A stretch of 64,000 nucleotides of DNA. Source: a virus. The stretch covers positions 1 through 64,000 of IMG/VR virus record IMGVR_UViG_3300042558_003926. One strand, written 5' to 3'. The notes under the pieces were generated by a model. That model searched no databases and was not told the DNA's origin. It saw only the letters and a list, made by a program, of their open reading frames with translations. Position numbers and translations under genes: made by a program. Shown in pieces: positions 15,498-49,225 of the stretch; the first letter of the stretch is position 1, and every line of letters starts with the position of its first letter.

Positions 15498-16052
15498 ATG
15501 GCAGGATTATCTCACTTTTCAAATTCGTTATCAGCAATAAATAGGTTTGAACCTGTTTATCTGAATCAATTCGAAGTTACTATTATACCACCAGCAGCAG
15601 TTGCCGGAGGTGAAATTTTACTTCAGCACGTATCCAAAGTAAGCGGTCTTTCTTTAGATAAGAACCCAGGACTTGCTACTCAGAAATTTAAGTTTGCTAA
15701 AAGAAATTACGCTGGAGCTAAGCCAGATCAGACATTCATGGATCTTAGTGTTAGTTTTTCTGTTAACTTGAACGATGATAACTCAATGTACGTTTTCAAA
15801 ACTCTGAGACAGTGGTCTGATTTAATTTACAATCCACTAACAGGAGCGATGGGATTAAAGAATGACTATGTAGGAACTATAGTAGTTAACATCTTTAATA
15901 AACAAGGTGATGTTTTTAGAAGGATTACTTGTAAAGATTGCTTTCTTACAAAGCCAATCTCTCCGATGAACCTAAACTATACATCAACTGACCTATACAA
16001 GATAGATGATATGGTATGGGCGGTGGACTACTGGGAGGATTTATTCCTATAA
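15498..16052 (+). CDS. 19: Tail tube protein, copy 1 (gp19-like)
   Basis: This 184-aa protein has the T4 gp19-type pattern: an N-terminal FEPVYLNQFEVTI strand, RQWSDLIYNPLTGAMGLKND and VNIFNKQGDVFRRITCKDCF, then a C-terminal WAVDYWEDLFL. It forms the inner tube inside the sheath. A gataaatataag element (15482-15493) 5 nt before the ATG at 15498 is probably too close to be a standard late promoter. A closely similar paralogue follows at 16070. Confidence 0.88.
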   Translation: MAGLSHFSNSLSAINRFEPVYLNQFEVTIIPPAAVAGGEILLQHVSKVSGLSLDKNPGLATQKFKFAKRNYAGAKPDQTFMDLSVSFSVNLNDDNSMYVFKTLRQWSDLIYNPLTGAMGLKNDYVGTIVVNIFNKQGDVFRRITCKDCFLTKPISPMNLNYTSTDLYKIDDMVWAVDYWEDLFL

Positions 16053-16069: not shown

Positions 16070-16645
16070 ATGGCAGGACTACCACATTTTACCAATTCAA
16101 AAGCAGCTATAAGTAACTTCGAACCGGTTTATTTAAATCAGTTTGAGGTTATAATAAATCCACCTGCTGGTATAGTAGACGCCGCTACTACCTTTAACGG
16201 TGAGGGGATATTAGCTCAACAAGTTAAATCCATAACGGGTTTAGCAGTAGATATTTCTCCTGCAGCAACAATAGAGCAGAACTATAAGTTTGCTACAAGA
16301 AGATATGCAGGGGGTGAACCATCTACCACGGATATGACTCTTTCGATGGAATTTGAGGTCAATCTTAATGATCAAAATTCCATGACTGTTTATAAAATAC
16401 TAAGACAGTGGTCGGATCTAATTTACAACCCTCTAACTGGAGCTATGGGGATTAAATCAGATTATGTTGGATCTATGGTTATTCAGGTATTTAACAAAAG
16501 AGGTGACGTTTTTAGAAGAATAAGAATACCTTCTTGCTTTTTAAGTGAAGCTATAAATGCAATGGAGTTAGATTATGAGACCCCAGCAATATATAACCTT
16601 ACTGCTAGTTGGATCTGTGATTACTGGGAAGATACCTTCTTATAA
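16070..16645 (+). CDS. Tail tube protein paralogue, copy 2 (gp19-like)
   Basis: This 191-aa protein aligns along its whole length with the preceding gene: shared FEPVYLNQFEV, RQWSDLIYNPLTGAMG, NKRGDVFRRI and WICDYWEDTFL. It differs by a short insertion after NPPAG (VDAATTFNGE) and many substitutions. It could be a second tube subunit, a tube initiator or cap (T4 gp48 and gp54 also derive from the tube fold), or a specialised end ring. A strong terminator follows at 16673-16699, so this gene closes the sheath-tube unit. Confidence 0.85.
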   Translation: MAGLPHFTNSKAAISNFEPVYLNQFEVIINPPAGIVDAATTFNGEGILAQQVKSITGLAVDISPAATIEQNYKFATRRYAGGEPSTTDMTLSMEFEVNLNDQNSMTVYKILRQWSDLIYNPLTGAMGIKSDYVGSMVIQVFNKRGDVFRRIRIPSCFLSEAINAMELDYETPAIYNLTASWICDYWEDTFL

Positions 16646-24940: not shown

Positions 24941-27571
24941 ATGGAATTCTTAAACCAGGTAAAAAAGCTAAAAGACACAACAAAATCTGCTGAAGTCAAA
25001 GCTCTTTGCGAAAATTTCCTTAATGGTGGATCTGTTTCTAAGGAGTTATTGATTGAATCTTTAGAGAATCACAATATATCTAATGATACCGTGAGCAATG
25101 TACAAAGCCACGTAGATGCTATAAGAAACGAAGAAATGGAAGCTTCAAGAAGAGTAGCAGAGTCAATTATGGAGTCTTGGGGCGGAATAAACAATAACAA
25201 ATCATTGGGTAATGCTGGATCATATGGCTCATTAAACGAGGCAGAAATGACAGATCCTGCTGCAGTAGAGAAAGCTTATAAGACAATAAAGAAAGGCGAG
25301 AAAGGGGAAAGAGTAAAAGAATTACAAATCTATCTTGCTGTACCAAATCCAGATGGTATTTTTGGACCAGCCCTAGAAACTAAAGTTAAGGAATTCCAAA
25401 AAGCTAATGGATTAACCACAGATGGTATGGTTGGAATTGCCACAATGAAAAAAATCATTGAGGTCTTAGGTAAGAAAAAGACTTTGGTTGACCAGATAAA
25501 AGAGATAGGAAAGAAATTCATTAGTGCTATAACTTCTGTAAAGGAAGAGGAATCATTCTTACAGGAGCTTGGAAGAGTAAGTTCGATTGATGGATCTGCA
25601 CAAGGGTTTTTAAAATCAAACGAGATTAATAATCTTGGTGTATTAGAATCTATTGGTATGATAAAAACATCATCCATCTATACATACCCTAAAGCTAGAA
25701 TTATATGCGAGCAATATCAGAATCTTATAGTAAATAAGAGAATACCTGAATTCGCATTAGTTCATAATTTTTTGAATGATATTCAACCTCTAAACTGGGA
25801 CGATACTGTTAAAGGAGTTTCCTCGGGTCTTATGGAAAAAGCAGAGACACTTTCAAGAGAGATCGAGGTTTCTAAAGTTATTGAATCAATAAAAAACACA
25901 GGAAGCTCCGCTTTCTATTCCGATCTTAATGATATTCTTAATGAGTGGTTAGTTTCCGAGAGTAAATCAAATGCCCTATTAGTTAAAAATATTTCTAAGT
26001 GGTCATTTAATCCAGTTGTTAGAAACTTAATCAACTTTATAAATGTAAATGAGAACACAGATAATAGAAGATTGGAAATTCCTACTATAGCTCAAGGAGA
26101 ATCTAGTGTATCTAGAGTTTTCTCTCCTGTTATGTTAGGGAGTCATAAATCTATCTTCTATCTAGGAGGAAACGTTTTTGAATCTAATTCTGCTGACATT
26201 AAGAAGCTAACAAGAAAAGAAGTTGCTGGCTTATCTAGCGATTATATTCAATTGATAGAATCTTTCAACAGACAATACGTTAGAGTTAACGAGGAAGGGA
26301 TTTTCGTTCAGTTAGGTAAAAGCACTGTTAGAATAATAGAGGAAGGAGAGGAAGTATCAGTTTATTTAGGAAAGAGAAAACTTAAATTTGGCGATCCTTC
26401 TGGATTAGCTAAAATATTAGGCTTAGAGTCAGCTACATATTTTGGAGTAAATGAAACTCAGGTCGTATCAGATATTATGAGACTTTACACTAACTACCAA
26501 AATATAGTTGAACTTGATTTCGCCAAGAGCATAGAATCAAATGTATTTGAAGGACTTGCTATCAATCTAATTAAATGGAATAATCAAATTTATCTTCAGA
26601 AGATTAACCAAGGAATGAATGAAAATTCAATCTATAAGGTTACTGGAAATCAGGCAGTATCAATGGTTAAGGAATTTATGAGATATGATATCTCTGAGGG
26701 ATTAACAGAATTTTTAGTTGGAGAAAATAGGGTTAAATCTATTATGGTAAATGACAGAAACAAGGTTATTGAGAACATTTCCAAAGTAGAGGAACAAATA
26801 AACAAGTTAGAAACATTAATGTCAACTAACCCTCTATATTCTGCTTCGCCTGAGATTATGTCAGCTAAAAAACTATTAGAGAATGAGCTTAACGTTCTTA
26901 GAGAGAAGTGGAACCAAATTAATATAGAGATATCTTCAGCTGAATCAACTATAGAATTGGAGAATTCTTTAGAAATCTTTGAAGATGAGAAATTTAACAT
27001 TGGCGATTTTATTAAAGTTAAAGAATCGGGAGATACTGGTAAGATAATTTCTATAGATGCTACTTCGGGAAGATACACGGTTCTTCTAGATACCGGTAAA
27101 ACTTCAGATTTTCTAATCAGTGAAATTACTGATTTAGAAGAGGCTCTTAGTCAAGCAGCTGAAGATAATGCTGATTCTTCGGATGAGGACGATTCAGAAG
27201 AGGAAGTAAAAGAGAACTTTGATATGTTAAGCGGTAACGGAAACAAACTTAACAAATCAGAAATGCCTCTATCAGATCAGAAGAAACTTTTGACTGATTT
27301 TTCAAAAGGGCATGGATTTTCTAAAGCCCCTGGAGATCATAAAGGAACAATCGACATGAAGATGGATTCGCTACATGGGTACAATTCAACGATGAATGAA
27401 GATGAGGGCTCAAAAAAAAACCCCAGTCGTAACTTCTACTTCGCTCCAAAATCAGAAGATCAGAATAAAAAAGGAAACCCTTTCGTCCAATCCTCTAAAG
27501 GAAAACTAAGCAAGGCACCAACAGGAAAAAACATAGTAGAAGAAGAGGAAGAGGGAGGAGAAAAGGAATAA
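24941..27571 (+). CDS. Large late protein with peptidoglycan-binding domain, probably packaged in the head
   Basis: This 876-aa protein has an N-terminal helical region of about 100 residues ending GSLNE-AE (98-102), a likely prohead-protease site. A PG_binding_1-like domain follows at about 114-170 (GEKGERVKELQIYL, GIFGPALETKVKEFQ, DGMVGIATMKKI). The long middle is helical. Near residues 685-715 an SH3/KOW-like stretch reads FNIGDFIKVKESGDTGKI, and the tail is acidic then Lys-rich. It has a late promoter and a terminator of its own. It may be an internal head protein injected with DNA, or a virion-associated cell-wall protein. Confidence 0.65.
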   Translation: MEFLNQVKKLKDTTKSAEVKALCENFLNGGSVSKELLIESLENHNISNDTVSNVQSHVDAIRNEEMEASRRVAESIMESWGGINNNKSLGNAGSYGSLNEAEMTDPAAVEKAYKTIKKGEKGERVKELQIYLAVPNPDGIFGPALETKVKEFQKANGLTTDGMVGIATMKKIIEVLGKKKTLVDQIKEIGKKFISAITSVKEEESFLQELGRVSSIDGSAQGFLKSNEINNLGVLESIGMIKTSSIYTYPKARIICEQYQNLIVNKRIPEFALVHNFLNDIQPLNWDDTVKGVSSGLMEKAETLSREIEVSKVIESIKNTGSSAFYSDLNDILNEWLVSESKSNALLVKNISKWSFNPVVRNLINFINVNENTDNRRLEIPTIAQGESSVSRVFSPVMLGSHKSIFYLGGNVFESNSADIKKLTRKEVAGLSSDYIQLIESFNRQYVRVNEEGIFVQLGKSTVRIIEEGEEVSVYLGKRKLKFGDPSGLAKILGLESATYFGVNETQVVSDIMRLYTNYQNIVELDFAKSIESNVFEGLAINLIKWNNQIYLQKINQGMNENSIYKVTGNQAVSMVKEFMRYDISEGLTEFLVGENRVKSIMVNDRNKVIENISKVEEQINKLETLMSTNPLYSASPEIMSAKKLLENELNVLREKWNQINIEISSAESTIELENSLEIFEDEKFNIGDFIKVKESGDTGKIISIDATSGRYTVLLDTGKTSDFLISEITDLEEALSQAAEDNADSSDEDDSEEEVKENFDMLSGNGNKLNKSEMPLSDQKKLLTDFSKGHGFSKAPGDHKGTIDMKMDSLHGYNSTMNEDEGSKKNPSRNFYFAPKSEDQNKKGNPFVQSSKGKLSKAPTGKNIVEEEEEGGEKE

Positions 27572-29169: not shown

Positions 29170-30843
29170 ATGGCTGGATTCGTCGAAAATAATAATCCCG
29201 GACAAACCCCTGTTATTCAGAGGATCAGGGATTCAGTAAGAAAATTAAGTACCTTCGGTATGAAGTACGATGACATGGTCATTCGTAACTCCCAAGCTGT
29301 TGGTGTAACTGAGGCATCGTTCCTTAATAAGAATAAATCCAATGTAGAGGATGAGAGCATGCTTTGGACCCTTGCTAAGCAAGATATATCTTCTAAACAA
29401 TTTATCGGGTACTTTGATAAGGACTATAAGGGTAAAAGAGATTATTTAAGAAAGTTTTCTCTTAATCCTGAAATAGAGTGGGTTTTAGATACGATATGCG
29501 ACGAGTCTATTTCTTATGATCCCTCTAATTTTTTCGCATATCCCGATTTTATAGATCTCAGTGATATTAACGAAAAGCTGAAGGATGATTTATATGAGAC
29601 ATTCAAGAAGCTTTATGATATATGGGGATTCTCCGATGATATTACCGCATGGCAATATTTCAGACAATTCATAGTTGATGGGTTTTTAGCTTTTGAGATT
29701 ATCTATGATGATAAAGGAAAGGAGATAGTTGGATTTAAAGAATTAGATCCAATATCTTTAATACCCAGTGTAGAAAAACAAATAGACGGATCCTTTATTA
29801 ATACATGGACTCAGTATCCTCAAGATCCTAAGAAAAAAAGAGTCCTTTATGACCCTCAGATAATTTACATTTCATACGCTAAGGGTAATGCTGTATCAAG
29901 AGTAAGCTACATAGAGAGATTAATAAGACCTTATAATATTCTTCGAATTATAGAATATACGAGAGTAATTTGGTCTGTAATGAACGCTTCATTTAAGCTA
30001 AAAATGACGGTTCCTATTGGTAGTAAATCCCAACAAAAGGGTATGCAAACACTGGGAGAACTAATGAGCATTTATAAGGAGGATATTCAATTGAATGACG
30101 ATAGTGGAGAATTAAGTATAGACGGAAGGCCTAAGATACAATTTTATAAAAACTACCTAATGCCTTCTGGCGTTAACGGAACGCCTTCTATAGAACCTAT
30201 AACAACAGATGGACCTAACCTTAACGACCCAGCTCCTCTAGCGTATTTCTTTGATAAATTTATACTTGAATCTAAAGTCCCTCCTTCAAGATTTCATAAC
30301 CCAGACGGAGGTACAACTTCTCCATATTCTAACGGGGCTGAGGGGTTAGACAAAGAAGAAATAAGATTTGCTAAGTTTATTTCTAGATTGAGATCAATAT
30401 TCCAGGAAATAGTAACAAAACCACTCTGGATACAAATGGTGAAGAAGTATCCTAAACTGGAGGATGATTTTATGTTTAAGAGTCAATTAGGACTTGATTA
30501 TTTCTCGGATAACCCATTTAAGTTAAATCAAGAAATTGATATAATAAACAAAAGAAAAGAGGCGGTAGCTGCTTTAGGTGGAATCATGGGAGATGAGGAA
30601 AAACCCTTTTTCTCTAATGCTTTCCTAATAGAAACATACCTAGGAATTTCTAAGCAAGATATTGATGCTAACAAGGAGGCATTAAAAAGGAAAGAGAAAG
30701 AGAAGAAGGAAAAAGAGAAAGAAGGAGAAGCTGGAGAAGAAGGAGGAGAAGCTGGAGCAGAATCCTCTACTGAAACAGCAGAGGAAACCCCTCCTGCAGA
30801 GGGAGAAGAAAAAACTACTGAAGAAACACCTCCTGCAACCTAA
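29170..30843 (+). CDS. 20: Portal vertex protein, copy 1 (gp20-like)
   Basis: This 557-aa protein carries T4-type portal features: RDYLRKFSLNPEIEWVLDTI, FKELDPISLIPSVEKQ, IIYISYAKGNAVSRVSYIER, ELMSIYKEDIQLNDDSGELS, GRPKIQFYKNYLMPSG and RLRSIFQEIVTKPLWIQMV. Twelve subunits form the ring through which DNA is packaged and to which the tail binds. The C-terminal about 50 residues are a Glu/Ala/Thr-rich low-complexity tail. A clear paralogue follows. Confidence 0.92.
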   Translation: MAGFVENNNPGQTPVIQRIRDSVRKLSTFGMKYDDMVIRNSQAVGVTEASFLNKNKSNVEDESMLWTLAKQDISSKQFIGYFDKDYKGKRDYLRKFSLNPEIEWVLDTICDESISYDPSNFFAYPDFIDLSDINEKLKDDLYETFKKLYDIWGFSDDITAWQYFRQFIVDGFLAFEIIYDDKGKEIVGFKELDPISLIPSVEKQIDGSFINTWTQYPQDPKKKRVLYDPQIIYISYAKGNAVSRVSYIERLIRPYNILRIIEYTRVIWSVMNASFKLKMTVPIGSKSQQKGMQTLGELMSIYKEDIQLNDDSGELSIDGRPKIQFYKNYLMPSGVNGTPSIEPITTDGPNLNDPAPLAYFFDKFILESKVPPSRFHNPDGGTTSPYSNGAEGLDKEEIRFAKFISRLRSIFQEIVTKPLWIQMVKKYPKLEDDFMFKSQLGLDYFSDNPFKLNQEIDIINKRKEAVAALGGIMGDEEKPFFSNAFLIETYLGISKQDIDANKEALKRKEKEKKEKEKEGEAGEEGGEAGAESSTETAEETPPAEGEEKTTEETPPAT

Positions 30844-30865: not shown

Positions 30866-32476
30866 ATGGCAGGATTTTTAGATTTTTTAAAACCAAATCA
30901 ATCAGCTTTAGGAAATATCCTAAAGAACCTTTCCAATGTTGCAAAATTTGGAATGCAATATGATGATATGGTTGTTAGAAACTCTCAGGCTATTGGTAAA
31001 ACTGAGGGATATTTTTTCAATCAAGAGAGCACTGGTTTTACTCAAAATGATGCCTTTCAGTGGACCGCTTCCTATCAAGATACCAAGGTAAGAAAATATA
31101 TTGCTTATTTTGACAAGGATTACATCGAGAAAAGAAATTATTTAAGAAAATTTTCTTTAAATGGTGAGATAGAGTTCATTCTAGATACCATAACGGATGA
31201 ATCGATCGTATACGACGATCGTAATTATTTCGCTCAGCCATCTTTTGTTAATCTTGACTTAAAGGACAAGATCAAAGATAAACTTGCTTCGCATTACAAT
31301 AGAATATACAATGTATTTGGATTTCAAAATACAATTCTTGCATGGCAATACTTTAAGCAATTTTTAATTGATGGATTTTTAGCATTTGAAATAATTTACG
31401 ATAACAAAGGAAGAGAGATAATAGGATTTAAGGAACTAGACCCAACCTCACTTCAGCCTGTGGTAGAGAAGGTAGCAGAAAATGAATATAGACAGTTTTG
31501 GATTCAGTACCCGAAGAATCCACAAATGACAAGAAAGCTAACCAATGAGCAGGTGATCTATATTTCTTATGCTAAGGGAAATACCATTTCAAGAGTTAGC
31601 TATATAGAAAGACTGGTTAGATCATACAATATTCTAAGAATAATGGAAAATTCCAGAGTTATCTGGAACGTAATGAATGCTTCCTATCGACTAAAATTCA
31701 TCATACCTATAGGTAGTCAATCTCCGCAAAAAGCCATGCAAACATTAGGACAGTTGATGTCCAATTATAAGGAGGATATTTCTATTAACGATTCTTCTGG
31801 TGAATTAACAATAAACGGAAGACCAAAGGTACAATTTTATAAGAACTATCTCTTTCCTGAAAAAGATGGACAGAGCCCAGATATATCATCTCTTAATTCG
31901 GCAGGTCCAGATTTTAACGTAATGGAGAATGTCGTATATTTTTTCAATAAATTAAAAATGGATTCTAAGATTCCCTATGCTAGATTTGCTTCTAAAAATA
32001 CTACGCCGGGAAATTATCAGACTAGCATAGATCAGCTAGAGAGGGATGAGATAAGATTCGAGAAATTTTTAAGAAGATTAAGATCCATATTCCAGGAGAT
32101 TCTAGTAAAACCCCTCTATATTCAAATGTGTTTAGATTACCCTGAACTATCCAGGGATAAAGGATTCAAAGCAAATATAGGATTAAATTATAATAGAGAT
32201 AGTGAGTTCGAGGAAATGGTAGAACTTGCTGGGTTTACAAAAAGGACCGAGTTTATAAACGGGTTAAAAGAATTGAAAGTTAAAATAGGAGAGGAAGAAA
32301 AAGGATACTTCGATCCGGATTTCTTGATTCAAAGATTCCTAGGCATGAATCCAGACCAGATAAAAATGAATCAAAAGTACAAAGAGAAAGAGGAGAAGGA
32401 GGCAGAAAAAGCTAAAGAAGAAGGTGGAGGAGAAGGCGAAGAATCCGGAGGTGGGGGTCAAACCGTTACTCTATAA
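30866..32476 (+). CDS. Portal vertex protein paralogue, copy 2 (gp20-like)
   Basis: This 536-aa protein is collinear with copy 1: RNYLRKFSLNGEIEFILDTI, FKELDPTSLQPVVEKV, VIYISYAKGNTISRVSYIER, GRPKVQFYKNYLFPE and RLRSIFQEILVKPLYIQM. Both copies are full length with all visible blocks intact, and both end in low-complexity acidic or Gly tails. Either could be the working portal, or the ring could be mixed. The start lies 22 nt after copy 1. Confidence 0.9.
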   Translation: MAGFLDFLKPNQSALGNILKNLSNVAKFGMQYDDMVVRNSQAIGKTEGYFFNQESTGFTQNDAFQWTASYQDTKVRKYIAYFDKDYIEKRNYLRKFSLNGEIEFILDTITDESIVYDDRNYFAQPSFVNLDLKDKIKDKLASHYNRIYNVFGFQNTILAWQYFKQFLIDGFLAFEIIYDNKGREIIGFKELDPTSLQPVVEKVAENEYRQFWIQYPKNPQMTRKLTNEQVIYISYAKGNTISRVSYIERLVRSYNILRIMENSRVIWNVMNASYRLKFIIPIGSQSPQKAMQTLGQLMSNYKEDISINDSSGELTINGRPKVQFYKNYLFPEKDGQSPDISSLNSAGPDFNVMENVVYFFNKLKMDSKIPYARFASKNTTPGNYQTSIDQLERDEIRFEKFLRRLRSIFQEILVKPLYIQMCLDYPELSRDKGFKANIGLNYNRDSEFEEMVELAGFTKRTEFINGLKELKVKIGEEEKGYFDPDFLIQRFLGMNPDQIKMNQKYKEKEEKEAEKAKEEGGGEGEESGGGGQTVTL

Positions 32477-43276: not shown

Positions 43277-45307
43277 ATGCCAACAACTCAAAGACTTAAT
43301 GAAGAATTGGTTTTCATTCTTGAAAGACAAGAACTTTTCCTTGAATCCAAAAAGGAGGGATCTAGCGATTATGTTCTAGAGGGTATTGCTGCTGTTTTCG
43401 GTAAAGAAAATAACAATAATCGAATCTACGAGGAAAAAGAATATCTACCTCACTTGGATTACCTTAGAGATAAGATCAAGCAGAGAAGATTAGTTGGTGA
43501 ATTAGACCACCCTGAAAAATTCGACGTTTCACTTAAGAACATTTCTCATATCATAGAGAAGCTAGATTACGATAAGGGAAATAGACAACTTAAAATTAAA
43601 GTTAGATTATTGGACACCCCTGCTGGAAAAATAGCTAAGAATTTAGTTGATGCTGGAGTTCCTTTATCTATATCTTCTAGAGCTGCTGGATCAGTTGGTG
43701 GAGATAAGAAAGTACAGATTAAAAAGATATTCACTTACGATCTAGTTGCAGATCCTGGTTTTCAAGACGCACAGTTAGAAAGAGTATATGAGAGTGCAGG
43801 TTTCACTTATGAAGAATTCTTCGCAAAGAGAAATAACACTATCCTAAACACACTAACTTGCTTAAATGAATCTCTAGGTCTGGAAAACGAATCCCCAGTG
43901 AAGATATATAGAGTTGAAAACAACGAAGAATTTAATAAACTCGTGAAAACAGACAAAAATAAAACATCCCTTATGGAGAATAATGAATTTGTTACCGCTG
44001 ATGAATTGAATCAATATTCCATCTTTCTTAAGAAGGAAATGGATTCGATGAAAAATGAGCTGACAACTATTAGACAACAAAGAAATTCTATTACTGAATC
44101 TAATAGCGATTATTCTAAATCTTTGGTTAGCCAACTTGAGAATAGAGTAGCTAAGTTAGAGAAATATTCAGAATATCTTGCTGAGAATTTAGATAACGCA
44201 ATTAAATACGGAGAATATCTTGCTGAGAATTTAGATCAGAGCATTAATTACAGTAAGTATTTAGCTGAGAACTTAGATAAGAATATTTCTTATTCTAAAT
44301 ATCTTTCTGAAAACGTAGATAAAAACATTTCTTATTCTAAATATCTTGCTGAGAACGTAGATAAGTCAATCAGCTATACTGAGTATGTAGCAGAGAACGT
44401 AGATAGAAATATCGAATACTCTAAATACTTAGCTGAAAAATTAGACCACTCTATCCAATATTCTGAATATTTAGCTGAAAACGTTGATAACAACATCGCA
44501 TACAGCGAGCATATTGCAGAAAATGTTAATAGCGGAATTGCTTATACCGAGTATGTAGCTGAAAAACTAAACGACGGTATTGAATACAGTGAGTATCTTG
44601 CTGAGAATTTGAGTAAAACTATTTCTTATACTGACTATTTAGCAGAAAATCTAAATAGAGGTTTAGATTACTCGGAGTACTTAGCTGAAAAAGTTAAAAG
44701 AGGTATTGATTACACAGAATACATCGCAGAAAGCATTAATGGCTCAGCATCTGGATTAGATATGGGTACATCTTCTGTTCCTCACGTAGGCAACTTAAGA
44801 GAAAATGTTGATGTTAGCTATCATGCAGGACTAAACGAGTCTGGATTTGCTGGAAGCTACGACAATCTTACTTCAAGAATAGATAATTTGATTGAATCGG
44901 TTAAAACACAAAAAACCGAGTCAAATATAAACGAGGCTGCTTCTAGATTTCAGTCTCAAGCCAATACACAAAAGGCTCAAACAGGTGTTCTAAATGAATC
45001 AATTAACGAAGGAGCAACAGGTCTTAAATTTATTGATGAAATGCCAGAGGAATACACTTCAATTTGGGAGTCTCTAAACGAAGGGCATAAGCAATCAATC
45101 ATTGCTCAAAGCCACTTCTACAGATTAGATACTGCATACCAAATTAAGAATTTCTGGTCTACTCGTCAATTAGGAGCTAAAACTTTCGGAGTTCAAAAAT
45201 TGGACGAGAACGAGAATCTAAATGAAAATAACGCTACGCAAGGCTACTCAAGTGATTATATGAATTACATAGCTTCAGCGTTAGAACAAAAATTTCAAAA
45301 AAGGTAA
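43277..45307 (+). CDS. Prohead protease-scaffold fusion (gp21 + gp22-like)
   Basis: In this 676-aa protein, residues 1-182 resemble the T4-type prohead protease: GELDHPEKFD with His78, PLSISSRAAG with Ser131-134, and YDLVADPGF. A linker with Met233 follows. Residues 296-491 are fourteen 14-residue repeats of YSEYLAENLDxxI type. The C-terminus, YTSIWESLN, then QSHFYRLDTAYQIKNFWSTR, resembles the capsid-binding end of gp22 scaffolds. T4 has protease and scaffold as separate genes. ATG 43973 (Met233) could start a scaffold-only product. Many LNE/INE sites lie in the linker and tail, where the protease could cut. Confidence 0.85.
   Translation: MPTTQRLNEELVFILERQELFLESKKEGSSDYVLEGIAAVFGKENNNNRIYEEKEYLPHLDYLRDKIKQRRLVGELDHPEKFDVSLKNISHIIEKLDYDKGNRQLKIKVRLLDTPAGKIAKNLVDAGVPLSISSRAAGSVGGDKKVQIKKIFTYDLVADPGFQDAQLERVYESAGFTYEEFFAKRNNTILNTLTCLNESLGLENESPVKIYRVENNEEFNKLVKTDKNKTSLMENNEFVTADELNQYSIFLKKEMDSMKNELTTIRQQRNSITESNSDYSKSLVSQLENRVAKLEKYSEYLAENLDNAIKYGEYLAENLDQSINYSKYLAENLDKNISYSKYLSENVDKNISYSKYLAENVDKSISYTEYVAENVDRNIEYSKYLAEKLDHSIQYSEYLAENVDNNIAYSEHIAENVNSGIAYTEYVAEKLNDGIEYSEYLAENLSKTISYTDYLAENLNRGLDYSEYLAEKVKRGIDYTEYIAESINGSASGLDMGTSSVPHVGNLRENVDVSYHAGLNESGFAGSYDNLTSRIDNLIESVKTQKTESNINEAASRFQSQANTQKAQTGVLNESINEGATGLKFIDEMPEEYTSIWESLNEGHKQSIIAQSHFYRLDTAYQIKNFWSTRQLGAKTFGVQKLDENENLNENNATQGYSSDYMNYIASALEQKFQKR
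44162..44749 (+). repeat. Fourteen tandem 42-nt coding repeats (14 residues each) in the scaffold
   Basis: The units read KYSEYLAENLDNAI, KYGEYLAENLDQSI, NYSKYLAENLDKNI, through DYTEYIAESINGSA. Each is two heptads, so the array should form one long coiled coil of about 196 residues. The DNA copies differ at many silent positions, so the protein pattern is kept by selection and not by recent duplication alone. Confidence 0.92.
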
Positions 45308-45325: not shown

Positions 45326-47065
45326 ATGAAACTGATTAACGAACAAGAAATCTATGATACCTGGTCTCCGATTATCGAGAGCAAAGCTGGTATCACAGAA
45401 GAAAGCAAAAAAGGTTGGTTGACTAAATACTGTCACTACCATTCATTAAACGAATCTGCTGGAGCTTATAACACTCTTGGTGTTGTAAACGGTATGGGTA
45501 ACGTTGCCCCACCAGCATTCCCTGGTGCTACTATTGGTGGTACTTCATTCTCAACAGGCGCTAACGCTGGTTTCTACAACACAGCTTGGCAAGGATCTGG
45601 AGATAAATTCCCTTCACTTCTTCCATTGGCTATTCAGGTAGCTGCGAAGACTGTAGGTTTTGATATCGTTCCAGTTATTCCTATGTCTGGTCCTACTGGT
45701 ATCTTGTCTTACTTAGACTACGTATACGCAGGTGGTAAAACTAACGCTGCTACTGCTGCTACATCTGGAGACAGTTTAGCAAAAGCTCCAGCTATGATTA
45801 AATTCCCAGTTTATCAAACTGCTTTAGGTACTGGTGTTACTGGTGCTACTGCAGGTACATTTACTGTTGGACAAAATTACGCTCTTACTAACGGTGGTAC
45901 AATAAACTTATTGTTTGTTGGTCTATCAAGAATTGACGGTTTCCCTATATTCGAGATCAATCCTTCTACAGTTGGTGGTGTAACTGGTATAACTGATGGC
46001 TATAACGTAGCTGGTATCATCAACGGTACTCCTGCTCAAGTAGGTTCTAGCGGATTCTATACTGGTGCTACTTCAGTTAACTACTTAGCTCAGTTAGTTA
46101 AAGGTCTAGAAGATCACATCCAAGGTTTCTCCGGTGCTGGTTTCAATAACACCGACGCTTGGCAAGGTCCTTACGTAGATGGTACTAAGACTTACAACCC
46201 GATGTTAAGAGGTGTTGGTGAGTCTACTTACTACAACTCAATGGGTCTATCGACTTTCACTAAGTTCGTAGAAGCTGAAACTTTCCAAGTAGCTGCTTCT
46301 GTTACAACTGAGCAAATCCAAGACCTTAACAAACAATTCGGTATCGACGTTATCTCAATGATCGAGAACGCATTGGTTAATGAGGTATCTCAGTCTATTA
46401 ACAAGCACATCCTTTCTAGAGCATTCGCTTTAGGTTGGTCTAACCACATCCAGTTCAACAATGTTGAAAACCAAAACTTGAACTTGAACTTGGTAATCGG
46501 TGGTGGTTCTGGTACTACATCAGCTTACGTTAAGAAAGACGATACTACTGGAACTATGGTTATCCCTGGTGGTCCTGCTTCAGGAGGTTACGAGAACTTG
46601 TCAACTTTACAAAGAAGACTATTCTCAAGAATCCTTGCAGCTGCAAACGTAGTAGCTAACAGAGGTCGTAGAGGTCCTGCTAACTTCATCGTTACTAACG
46701 CTGCAGTAGCAAGTGCACTTCAAGATATCTCTCAGTTCACTTTCGCTCCATTCTCTAACACGTTAACTCAAAATAACGGTACTTTATACCCTGTAGGTTC
46801 ACTTGCTGGTATGACCGTTTACGTAGATCAGAACATGAGATACGACGATACACGTGTATGTATTGGTAGAAAAGGTGGTGACGATGAGCCAGGATTGAAA
46901 TTCATGCCTTACATGATGGCTGAGTCAATTCAGACTATCTCTGAAGGTACAATGTCACCTAAAATCGCGGTTAAATCAAGATACGCTCTAGTTGAAGCTG
47001 GTTTCTTACCAGAGACTATGTACTTGACATTCTATGTTAACGTACCTGCTGGAGGTTTAGCTTAA
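45326..47065 (+). CDS. 23: Major capsid protein (gp23-like)
   Basis: This 579-aa protein has an N-terminal segment (MKLINEQEIYDTWSPIIESK ... YHSLNESAGAYN) that mirrors T4 gp23, whose first 65 residues are removed at LTE-AEIGG. Here cleavage is expected after Glu43 in SLNE-SAG. MSGPTGILSYLDYVYAGGK, then the HK97-fold body and FVTNAAVASAL-type blocks (NFIVTNAAVASALQDI), are typical. Codon choice is smoother and more GC-ended than its neighbours, as expected for the most abundant protein. A strong terminator follows. Confidence 0.93.
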   Translation: MKLINEQEIYDTWSPIIESKAGITEESKKGWLTKYCHYHSLNESAGAYNTLGVVNGMGNVAPPAFPGATIGGTSFSTGANAGFYNTAWQGSGDKFPSLLPLAIQVAAKTVGFDIVPVIPMSGPTGILSYLDYVYAGGKTNAATAATSGDSLAKAPAMIKFPVYQTALGTGVTGATAGTFTVGQNYALTNGGTINLLFVGLSRIDGFPIFEINPSTVGGVTGITDGYNVAGIINGTPAQVGSSGFYTGATSVNYLAQLVKGLEDHIQGFSGAGFNNTDAWQGPYVDGTKTYNPMLRGVGESTYYNSMGLSTFTKFVEAETFQVAASVTTEQIQDLNKQFGIDVISMIENALVNEVSQSINKHILSRAFALGWSNHIQFNNVENQNLNLNLVIGGGSGTTSAYVKKDDTTGTMVIPGGPASGGYENLSTLQRRLFSRILAAANVVANRGRRGPANFIVTNAAVASALQDISQFTFAPFSNTLTQNNGTLYPVGSLAGMTVYVDQNMRYDDTRVCIGRKGGDDEPGLKFMPYMMAESIQTISEGTMSPKIAVKSRYALVEAGFLPETMYLTFYVNVPAGGLA

Positions 47066-47118: not shown

Positions 47119-47127
47119 GTGTAGATG

Positions 47128-47138
47128 GGATATATAGA
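47128..47138 (+). promoter_or_regulatory. Late promoter box GGATATATAGA
   Basis: TATATA at 47131-47136, 25 nt before ATG 47161 and 10 nt after the capsid terminator. A longer frame starting at 47125 would run through the promoter and is not used here. Confidence 0.75.
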
Positions 47139-47160
47139 GAGTAGAAAAGTATTACACCAT

Positions 47161-48324
47161 ATGAAAAATATACCATCATTTAAAGAATTTAATCAGTATT
47201 CGGACTATATCGAAACAACTAACGAAAGCACGTTAAACGAGCTTAGAAATTTAGAAGGTGCAGATCCTATACATTCGGTTAACGAGGGCCACGTAATGAA
47301 CGCAGCCAAAAATTTTCTTTCCAAGTTTTTTCTAGGTCCTCTTTCTAGAGTAGGAGCTATAGATCAGGCTAGAAAAATAATTCTTGAATTGGAATTAGAT
47401 CTTATAGAAAAAAGAAACGATTTTGAGCTTGAGATGGAAGAGATAGAGAATAAAATCGATGAGTTAATAAAGATAAACGATAAAGAAAAAATAGTTTCTT
47501 TAGAAAGAGAAAGAGAGCTAAAAGCTAAACAAATGGATGCTTATGTTAAAGCACAAAAACTTAAGCTTGAAAAATCAAAAGATGTTGCAAGAAAAATAGT
47601 AGACGGTAATGCTAGAAGAAAAGAATACTTAGAAGCTGGGTATGCTGAGGATGAAATAGCTATAGCTGAACTTGAATATAAGTTAGCTTCCCAGAGAATC
47701 GAAGATAAATCCGAACTTGGCGAATACGAAGCAAAAGTTAAGAAGGCTAAAGAAGAAGCAGATGCTAAGGCAGCTCAAATGAAAGATAATGCAGAAAAGG
47801 ATGCAGGGAAGAATGCAGGAAAAACTGGATCTTCCGAAGATGAACCAGAGGACCTATCTTTAGATCCTCAGGAAGAGAAGAAAAAAGTTGCTGGTAGAAA
47901 ATATAAGGATATTATAACCAGAAAAAATGAGCTAACAAAGGAGATTGCCGATCTTAGATCTGATTTGGAGAGGAAATTAAGTAAATTCAAATCGAGAGTT
48001 TCTGGAAATGCTGCTGCGGGTAAGAAGGAATCTAAATATGCTGAATCGATTAAGATTGAGTTATTAGAGATTTGTTCAGCTCTTGATTCGAAAATAAATC
48101 TTCTTACGACCCTTAGAAATCTAGGTAAAACCGAGAGGGAAATAGATAGAAAATTAGGTAAAGAATCAGAATTTACCCAACTAGCAGATAAGATCAATCA
48201 GAGTATCTTGGATGGTGAAGATGCAAATTCAGGGACAAAGAAAATTATTTCTGATTTATTTGGATCGTCCCAAGTTACCCCTCAATCTATAGAAGAGGCT
48301 ATGAGAAAAATAACCGAAAATTAA
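47161..48324 (+). CDS. Coiled-coil late protein, probably internal head protein
   Basis: The start is set at ATG 47161 because 47125 lies in the promoter. The N-terminus MKNIPSFKEFNQYSDYIETT has NE/LE sites (TTNE, TLNE, NLE-G, SVNE-G) in the first 50 residues. Then come a short hydrophobic helix (AKNFLSKFFLGPLSRVG) and a very long Lys/Glu coiled coil (about residues 65-300). It resembles the next gene in plan: leader, hydrophobic helix, coiled coil. It is likely packaged with DNA and processed by the prohead protease; the function is not recognised. Confidence 0.65.
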   Translation: MKNIPSFKEFNQYSDYIETTNESTLNELRNLEGADPIHSVNEGHVMNAAKNFLSKFFLGPLSRVGAIDQARKIILELELDLIEKRNDFELEMEEIENKIDELIKINDKEKIVSLERERELKAKQMDAYVKAQKLKLEKSKDVARKIVDGNARRKEYLEAGYAEDEIAIAELEYKLASQRIEDKSELGEYEAKVKKAKEEADAKAAQMKDNAEKDAGKNAGKTGSSEDEPEDLSLDPQEEKKKVAGRKYKDIITRKNELTKEIADLRSDLERKLSKFKSRVSGNAAAGKKESKYAESIKIELLEICSALDSKINLLTTLRNLGKTEREIDRKLGKESEFTQLADKINQSILDGEDANSGTKKIISDLFGSSQVTPQSIEEAMRKITEN

Positions 48325-48334
48325 TTCTCTTAAT

Positions 48335-49225
48335 ATGACATTACTTAAATTTAAAGATTGGGATAACCTGAACGAAGCTAATGTTTTTGATAAAATCAAA
48401 ACATGGTTTAGCACTAATTTTGGTGGAGTTCTTTCAAGGATCGAGGATCTTTTAAGCGAATATAGATCGGCAGAAACTGATTACGTAGATGAATGGGGGA
48501 AGATTGTCGAAGAAATTGACAAACTGGAACTTCAGAGAGCTCAAACTAAATCCGATCCTGCGGAGGTTAAAAAAATAGACCGATACATTCAAAGAAATCG
48601 TCAGTTAATTGAGGATATGAAAAAAGCTCATGTTAAAAAGATAGATCACTTGATGGTGAAGGTCAAAAAAGAAATAGCAGATAGCAGAAAGCTTCAAAGC
48701 TATTGGGAAGTTAATAAAACAAGGATTGACGCCGAGGTTGCTGATGATATGCTAAAAAGATCTAAACAGCTGGCTAATGTCGATCTTTCTGGATCTCTTT
48801 ATTCTAAATACAAAGAAGCTGTTATGAAAGCTAGAGAGAAGGATCTCGAATTTAAAGAAAAATACGGGGATCTTTTGGCTGGACAGAAAAAACCACAAGC
48901 TACTCCGTCTTCTAAGACGAGCAAGAGTGGTTTCAGTGAAGCTGCATTGGATCTTTACATTTCAATGTCTCTAAGTGATTTTACTAAGGAAGTGGAGGAT
49001 TTAGATTCAAAGGAAAAGAAAGAGGTAACTTCATACCTTCTTAAACAAAGGAATGATCTGTATGTCCAGATGGAAATGGAGAAAGAATCAGCTAATTTAA
49101 TGTTTACCAATGATGAGATCAAAAGAGATGAACTAGGTAAAATGCTTAAGGAAATCAGAGAAAAATATATGGATCAAATTAGAGATCTTAGATCAAAAAT
49201 AACTATATCTAGGAAAAATGCTTAG
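48335..49225 (+). CDS. Coiled-coil late protein, second of a related set
   Basis: This 296-aa protein starts MTLLKFKDWDNLNE-ANVFDK, a short leader with an LNE-A site. An amphipathic segment (KIKTWFSTNFGGVLSRIEDL) precedes long charged helices, matching the layout of the preceding gene. It overlaps the next gene by 8 nt. It is proposed as a minor internal head protein. Confidence 0.62.
   Translation: MTLLKFKDWDNLNEANVFDKIKTWFSTNFGGVLSRIEDLLSEYRSAETDYVDEWGKIVEEIDKLELQRAQTKSDPAEVKKIDRYIQRNRQLIEDMKKAHVKKIDHLMVKVKKEIADSRKLQSYWEVNKTRIDAEVADDMLKRSKQLANVDLSGSLYSKYKEAVMKAREKDLEFKEKYGDLLAGQKKPQATPSSKTSKSGFSEAALDLYISMSLSDFTKEVEDLDSKEKKEVTSYLLKQRNDLYVQMEMEKESANLMFTNDEIKRDELGKMLKEIREKYMDQIRDLRSKITISRKNA

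Follow-up and report, generated by a model that had tools for sequence, protein, structure and literature searches.

A gene fusing a prohead protease to a probable scaffold, with a predicted nested start and an array of 14-residue repeats bearing candidate cleavage sites, in T4-related giant phages

In phage lambda (C/Nu3), a scaffold-only product is encoded in frame and 3'-coterminally with the protease–scaffold gene. The same nesting is described for herpesvirus UL26/UL26.5 (PMC4498786), and gpO of phage P2 combines an N-terminal protease and a C-terminal scaffold in one chain (PMC7552001). In phage T4, the protease gp21 and the scaffold gp22 are encoded by separate genes, as in KVP40-like, Ackermannviridae and cyanophage records; a short separate protease was found in PAU. 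The T4 gp21 gene has an internal start of its own (Met45). T4 gp21 cleaves after L/I-x-E, fragmenting gp22 into small pieces (PMC9026906); copy numbers are 576 for gp22 and about 100 for gp21 (PMC5694885). No description of a protease–scaffold fusion in T4-like phages was found within the open literature searched. Fusion is already known from P2 gpO, and nesting from lambda C/Nu3 and herpesvirus UL26/UL26.5; new in the present case are a fusion belonging to the T4 superfamily, its wide occurrence among giant phages and the coupling of a helical repeat to a candidate cleavage site.

The window, a stretch of 64,000 nucleotides from a linear virus record of 289,651 bases, contains one gene that joins a prohead protease to a probable scaffold, and the next gene directly 3' of it encodes a gp23-like capsid protein (Table 1). 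With T4 gp21/gp22 the locus shares the protease family and fold, the slot before gp23, a cleavage motif of the L/I-x-E type and, as proposed below, extensive digestion of the scaffold. It differs from T4 and the other phages with separate genes in the fusion and in the lack of detectable homology to gp22, and T4 gp22 has no 14-residue array. P2 gpO, although similar in plan, belongs to the P2 lineage with its own capsid and has a short scaffold and no repeat array; it is set apart here by its published description. Lambda C/Nu3 and herpesvirus UL26/UL26.5 have the nesting that is predicted here, but their proteases are of different sequence families, and a cut-site array is absent from both.

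Table 1. Features of the locus in coordinates of the window (an arrow marks a putative cut).
Feature	Coordinates	Strand	Basis
Fused prohead protease–scaffold gene, long product of 676 aa	43277..45307	+	Single uninterrupted ATG-to-stop ORF; 139 distinct complete relatives fused, 0 split
T4 gp21-type protease domain, about residues 31-175	43367..43801	+	Pfam, phrog_207, HHalign, AF2, Foldseek, invariant columns
Linker, variable and disordered in part, containing the putative cut site LNE198↓S	43802..43972	+	AF2, alignment, motif and base composition
Predicted nested start codon, ATG (Met233)	43973..43975	+	Met conservation amid variable flanks; start-like upstream context
Predicted scaffold-only product, 444 aa, net charge -31	43973..45307	+	Inferred from nested start
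Predicted N-terminus of scaffold-only product, (f)MENNEFVTADELNQYSIFLK or (M)ENNEFVTADELNQYSIFLK	from 43973	+	
Helix after conserved block FVTADELNQYS, residues 241-272	43997..44092	+	AF2; alignment
Helical array of 14 x 14 residues, residues 297-492, candidate [LIV]xE↓ site per copy	44165..44752	+	Lag-14 identities, alignments, AF2
Linker with several [LI]xE[SANG] sites (LNES521, INEA553, LNES574, INEG578)	44753..45025	+	Motif search
Conserved helical domain at the C-terminus, residues 584-630, a candidate for binding the capsid protein	45026..45166	+	AF2 pLDDT about 90; invariant F626, W627
gp23-like major capsid protein, presumed partner/substrate	45326..47065	+	Pfam Gp23, E=2e-41

A single-protein search found 120 relatives in IMG/VR, and many more were found by alignment searches. 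The best GenBank matches were metagenomic huge phages of 462-735 kb, followed by Lak phages and then by cyanophage proteases. Distinct complete proteins in which the protease motifs and the C-terminal motif occur together comprise 139 fused and no split cases; natural split versions, sought in all loci analysed, were not found, and the sole apparent exception (locus L049) is due to ambiguous bases (X) in the DHP motif. The fusion of enzyme and scaffold in one gene, proposed in the preliminary description of this DNA, is supported, and these relatives exclude a chimera, a frame error or the sequencing error raised there as a possible cause. A separate gp22 gene, the other circumstance held there to speak against the fusion, was not found either: the gp22 profile phrog_237 and the scaffold profiles phrog_23627 and phrog_38259 had no matches in the 290-kb record, and phrog_237 had none in 18 genomes from phages with the fused gene or from their relatives, with gp22 detected in all five T4-like genomes used as a positive control.

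The same fused plan was found in three cultured phages, namely PTm1 (564 aa) and pT24 (527 aa) of Tenacibaculum and MA9V-1 (1347 aa) of Chryseobacterium, where the gene lies upstream of that of a related capsid protein and is annotated only as protease or scaffold. Their products share the C-terminal domain with the window protein, but the 14-residue YxEYLAE array is absent. In MA9V-1 (L106:1708-5751), many (L/I/A)NE↓S sites are distributed throughout the middle of the protein. Lak phages (Prevotella, 540 kb) encode a fused protein of 584 aa with a similar protease and a C-terminus similar by inspection, but an acidic low-complexity linker replaces the array, and a tblastn search with the C-terminus gave no cross-match to that of the window protein.

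The T4-type protease domain anticipated at the N-terminus was confirmed by profile matches and by fold. The N-terminal part matches Pfam Peptidase_S77 (32 bits against a cut-off of 27), Peptidase S80 (31 bits against a cut-off of 23) and phrog_207 (E=9.5e-39), and HHalign comparison with gp21 gives a probability of 99.7%. The AF2 model, with pLDDT mostly 85-96, matches the solved structure of T4 gp21, 5jbl, with a Foldseek E of 9e-10 and a target-normalised TM of 0.69-0.71; herpesvirus proteases form the next group in the fold search and match much more weakly. Residues H78, H91, S133, S134 and D155, including the candidate catalytic His and Ser, are invariant among 79 sequences. Motif enrichment suggests that this protease may cut after Glu at sites of the L/I-x-E type.

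The motif [LI]xE[SANG] occurs 23 times in the fused protein, for which composition predicts 3.4, an excess far above that of any other protein of the window, and four times in the capsid protein against 1.0 expected. The latter carries a putative cleavage site SLNE↓S at about residue 43, and this [LI]NE↓N/S position is kept in relatives. The scaffold part of the fused protein contains 24 [LI]xE sites. Together with its location between the protease and gp23, its acidity and its helices in the AF2 model, this richness in cleavage motifs gives the scaffold part the traits of the gp22 type.

The central array is represented by exactly 14 copies with the consensus YSEYLAENLDxxIx, helical in the AF2 monomer model at low to middling confidence. 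Lag-14 identities number 108 of 176 (mean of 2000 shuffles 15, maximum 27), and a 14-residue periodicity is present in 141 of 166 proteins of fused size. Neighbouring copies show an identity of 59% at the amino acid level and 66% at the nucleotide level, which indicates that the array is old and kept at the protein level; the fourteen repeats of the preliminary description thus stand, but not their characterization as near-perfect. In several loci, including L174, L181, L190 and L210, the middle of the fused protein is occupied by other repeat types, namely IEDWSEHVTETVTG units in L181 and glutamine-rich, acidic or glutamate-rich stretches elsewhere.

Each of the 14 repeats in the window contains [LIV]-x-E, in the form [LIV]-A-E, matching the T4 cleavage motif. 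Across 153 arrays, phased on Y1 and I13 only, variability is lowest at Glu7 (0.60 bits, 93% E), and L, V or I occupies position 5 in 98%; P3 is V in 22% of repeats, and V falls outside the strict L/I motif of T4. The residue following the repeat Glu is Asn in 47% and Lys in 28%, and Asn also follows Glu at the conserved site of the capsid protein. Full digestion at the array sites would, by computation, give thirteen successive 14-residue peptides.

The evidence for an internal start comes from an alignment of 79 diverse fused proteins with 28-92% identity to the window protein. Residue 233 is Met in 77 of the 77 rows with a residue there, whereas at positions 224-232 and 234-237 the most frequent residue reaches only 0.18-0.54, with gaps. 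Residues 228-238 are predicted to be disordered (linker pLDDT <50 in the AF2 model), so a structural reason for the fixed Met is unlikely. In 112 of 119 unique sequences a Met precedes the conserved block by at most nine residues, where the composition of the linker would predict about 12%; misplacement by the search pattern accounts for most of the seven exceptions, and all these counts come from sequences related by descent and are therefore not independent. A role of Met233 as P2 of a cleavage site (LME↓N) was rejected, since P3 and P1 around it are not conserved.

The linker DNA just 5' of the codon is A-rich and G-poor. In the 20 bases upstream of Met233, the frequency of A is 0.62 and that of G 0.07, with A 0.71 and T 0.00 at -3. 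The same measures are A 0.63 and G 0.07, with A 0.54 and T 0.19 at -3, for ORF starts, and A 0.39 and G 0.19, with A 0.30 and T 0.18 at -3, for 597 other internal Mets. Synonymous codons just upstream of Met233 are likewise biased towards A (AAA 0.92 versus 0.69 elsewhere; GAA 0.92 versus 0.75), and this bias, together with the A-rich context free of T at -3, points to present selection on the DNA. A Shine-Dalgarno sequence is absent upstream of Met233, as it is at true starts here. In Flavobacterium johnsoniae, starts are determined by A at -3, -6, -12 and -13 and low U at -3, and not by Shine-Dalgarno pairing (PMC6847099); Bacteroidota are predicted as hosts of apparently related phages (PMC9723584, PMC12619734). 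The context of Met233 thus looks like a start in a Bacteroidota phage, judged by determinants from F. johnsoniae. PTm1, pT24, MA9V-1, L189 and a few others lack Met233 or showed no equivalent of it, and the nested start is therefore not shared by every member of the fused class. As the preliminary description had suggested, a second start at Met233, which would give scaffold without protease, is strongly supported by the comparative evidence.

The C-terminal domain is common to PTm1, pT24 and MA9V-1 and was recognized in Lak phages by inspection only. In the fold search it matched only fused proteins of the same kind and one uncharacterised protein of 389 aa, with no PDB candidate. The latter protein, BFVD A0A7S9SUJ9 (Virus NIOZ-UU157), may be a stand-alone scaffold or an incomplete gene. 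Against a gp22 profile of 11 members, the C-terminus gave an HHalign probability of 0.4%, and neither the whole-region nor the domain comparison was significant, so that the earlier designation of a gp22-like C-terminus is not confirmed. A core-only comparison in the register L-x-E-x-x-K gave P=0.008 and a probability of 4.8%, but its region was chosen after inspection, and the match is therefore not claimed. The C-terminus would fill the role of gp22, but the name gp22 is not warranted for it.

Several other genes of the window were noted. Positions 29170-30843 and 30866-32476 contain tandem, intact, full-length portal genes (557 and 536 aa, phrog_213, 51% identical). The pair is also present in all eight near relatives of 230-434 kb, and only one full-length copy was found in the 462-735-kb phages, Lak, PTm1 and pT24; it would be unusual for a portal ring to consist of two paralogues. 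At 15498-16052 and 16070-16645, two genes resembling those of tail tubes (phrog_32623, weak tail-tube profiles) lie in tandem. At the left end (1-720), collagen-like GSS/GAS/GTT repeats with a period of 9 and its multiples were found. The gene at 24941-27571 encodes a protein of 876 aa with an internal endolysin-like domain and nine [LI]xE[SANG] motifs (4.6 expected).

The interpretation we consider probable is that of a nested prohead protease–scaffold gene with two products. In the long product, a flexible linker would connect the gp21-type protease to a long helical rod of negative charge, followed by the C-terminal domain, and the start at Met233 would supply the same scaffold minus the protease, in excess over the long product. 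Both would co-assemble as the prohead core, so that the enzyme would enter tethered to the scaffold and at a sub-stoichiometric dose. The stoichiometric delivery of protease suggested in the preliminary description is probably the reverse of what happens, since a nested start would put scaffold in excess, as in T4. Analogy with the herpesvirus scaffold (PMC4498786) makes it probable that the C-terminal domain binds the capsid protein. After closure of the shell, the protease would cut after Glu at [L/I/V]-x-E sites, and with one site per 14-residue unit the rod would fall into 14-residue peptides, small enough to leave the head and free room for DNA. The wider proposition has, in our estimate, an even chance of being correct: that in a widespread lineage of Bacteroidota phages one nested gene replaced gp21 and gp22, its scaffold being a self-destructing rod of identical 14-residue helical units, each ending in a protease site, which one activation would convert to uniform 14-mers.

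The array might instead be a purely structural coiled coil, with Glu7 serving helix packing or capsid binding and cleavage confined to the LNE and INE sites outside it. The hydrophobic periodicity of the array, which peaks at 3.5 residues, is consistent with this, as is the divergent 462-kb phage L086, where the 14-residue period is kept and the Glu is lost in many units. However, conservation at Glu7 exceeds that of the tyrosines and leucines on the hydrophobic face, and PTm1 has a different, unrelated-looking array with a period of 16 that also carries LSE or LCE in each unit; a structural role as the whole explanation is doubtful. Somewhat less credence is given to a fused gene with a single product, which would place a protease on every scaffold subunit and in which Met233 has been retained for some other reason or is the relic of a scaffold gene that was once separate. 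P2 gpO, a single protease–scaffold chain (PMC7552001), is a precedent for it, and Met233 stands at the head of the conserved scaffold block, as expected of a relic start. This is nevertheless unlikely, because Met233 alone is fixed within a disordered stretch of variable sequence, is not part of a cleavage site and lies in a DNA context implying present selection.

Two further explanations concern the place of the protein in the head. It could be a protease extended by a tether or an inner-body segment, with the main scaffold encoded elsewhere, for instance at 47125-48324 or 48335-49225, 3' of the capsid gene. Both of these neighbours encode charged, helix-prone proteins with no family match in the profile search, which are candidates for further core proteins, and the product of 48335-49225 begins with a possible capsid-targeting propeptide ending in LNE↓A. 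Still, the fused gene occupies the 21-22-23 slot and its scaffold part is rich in [LI]xE sites, and comparable genes directly 3' of the capsid gene are absent from L084, L085 and L088, which makes a main scaffold outside the fused gene distinctly improbable. The idea that the number of repeats is a ruler setting head size, also present in the preliminary description, finds some encouragement in a copy number held near 12-16 in the large array group. There are 14 copies in the 230-290-kb range, 13 in the ranges of 343-434 kb and 634-642 kb, and about 13 at 735 kb (12-13 over 634-735 kb), with about 5-9 in two contigs of 236-238 kb and none in the 540-kb Lak phages; these sizes are lower bounds, as the contigs are linear and often incomplete. 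Copy number shows no trend with genome size, and a ruler is very improbable.

The gene provides a candidate for the scaffold of many T4-related giant phages, a large group with genomes of up to 735 kb. Its conserved nested start is clearly predicted, and present genome annotation overlooks it. The proposed scaffold, with one cleavage site per 14-residue unit, would be a simple and testable design, that of a scaffold built for erasure.
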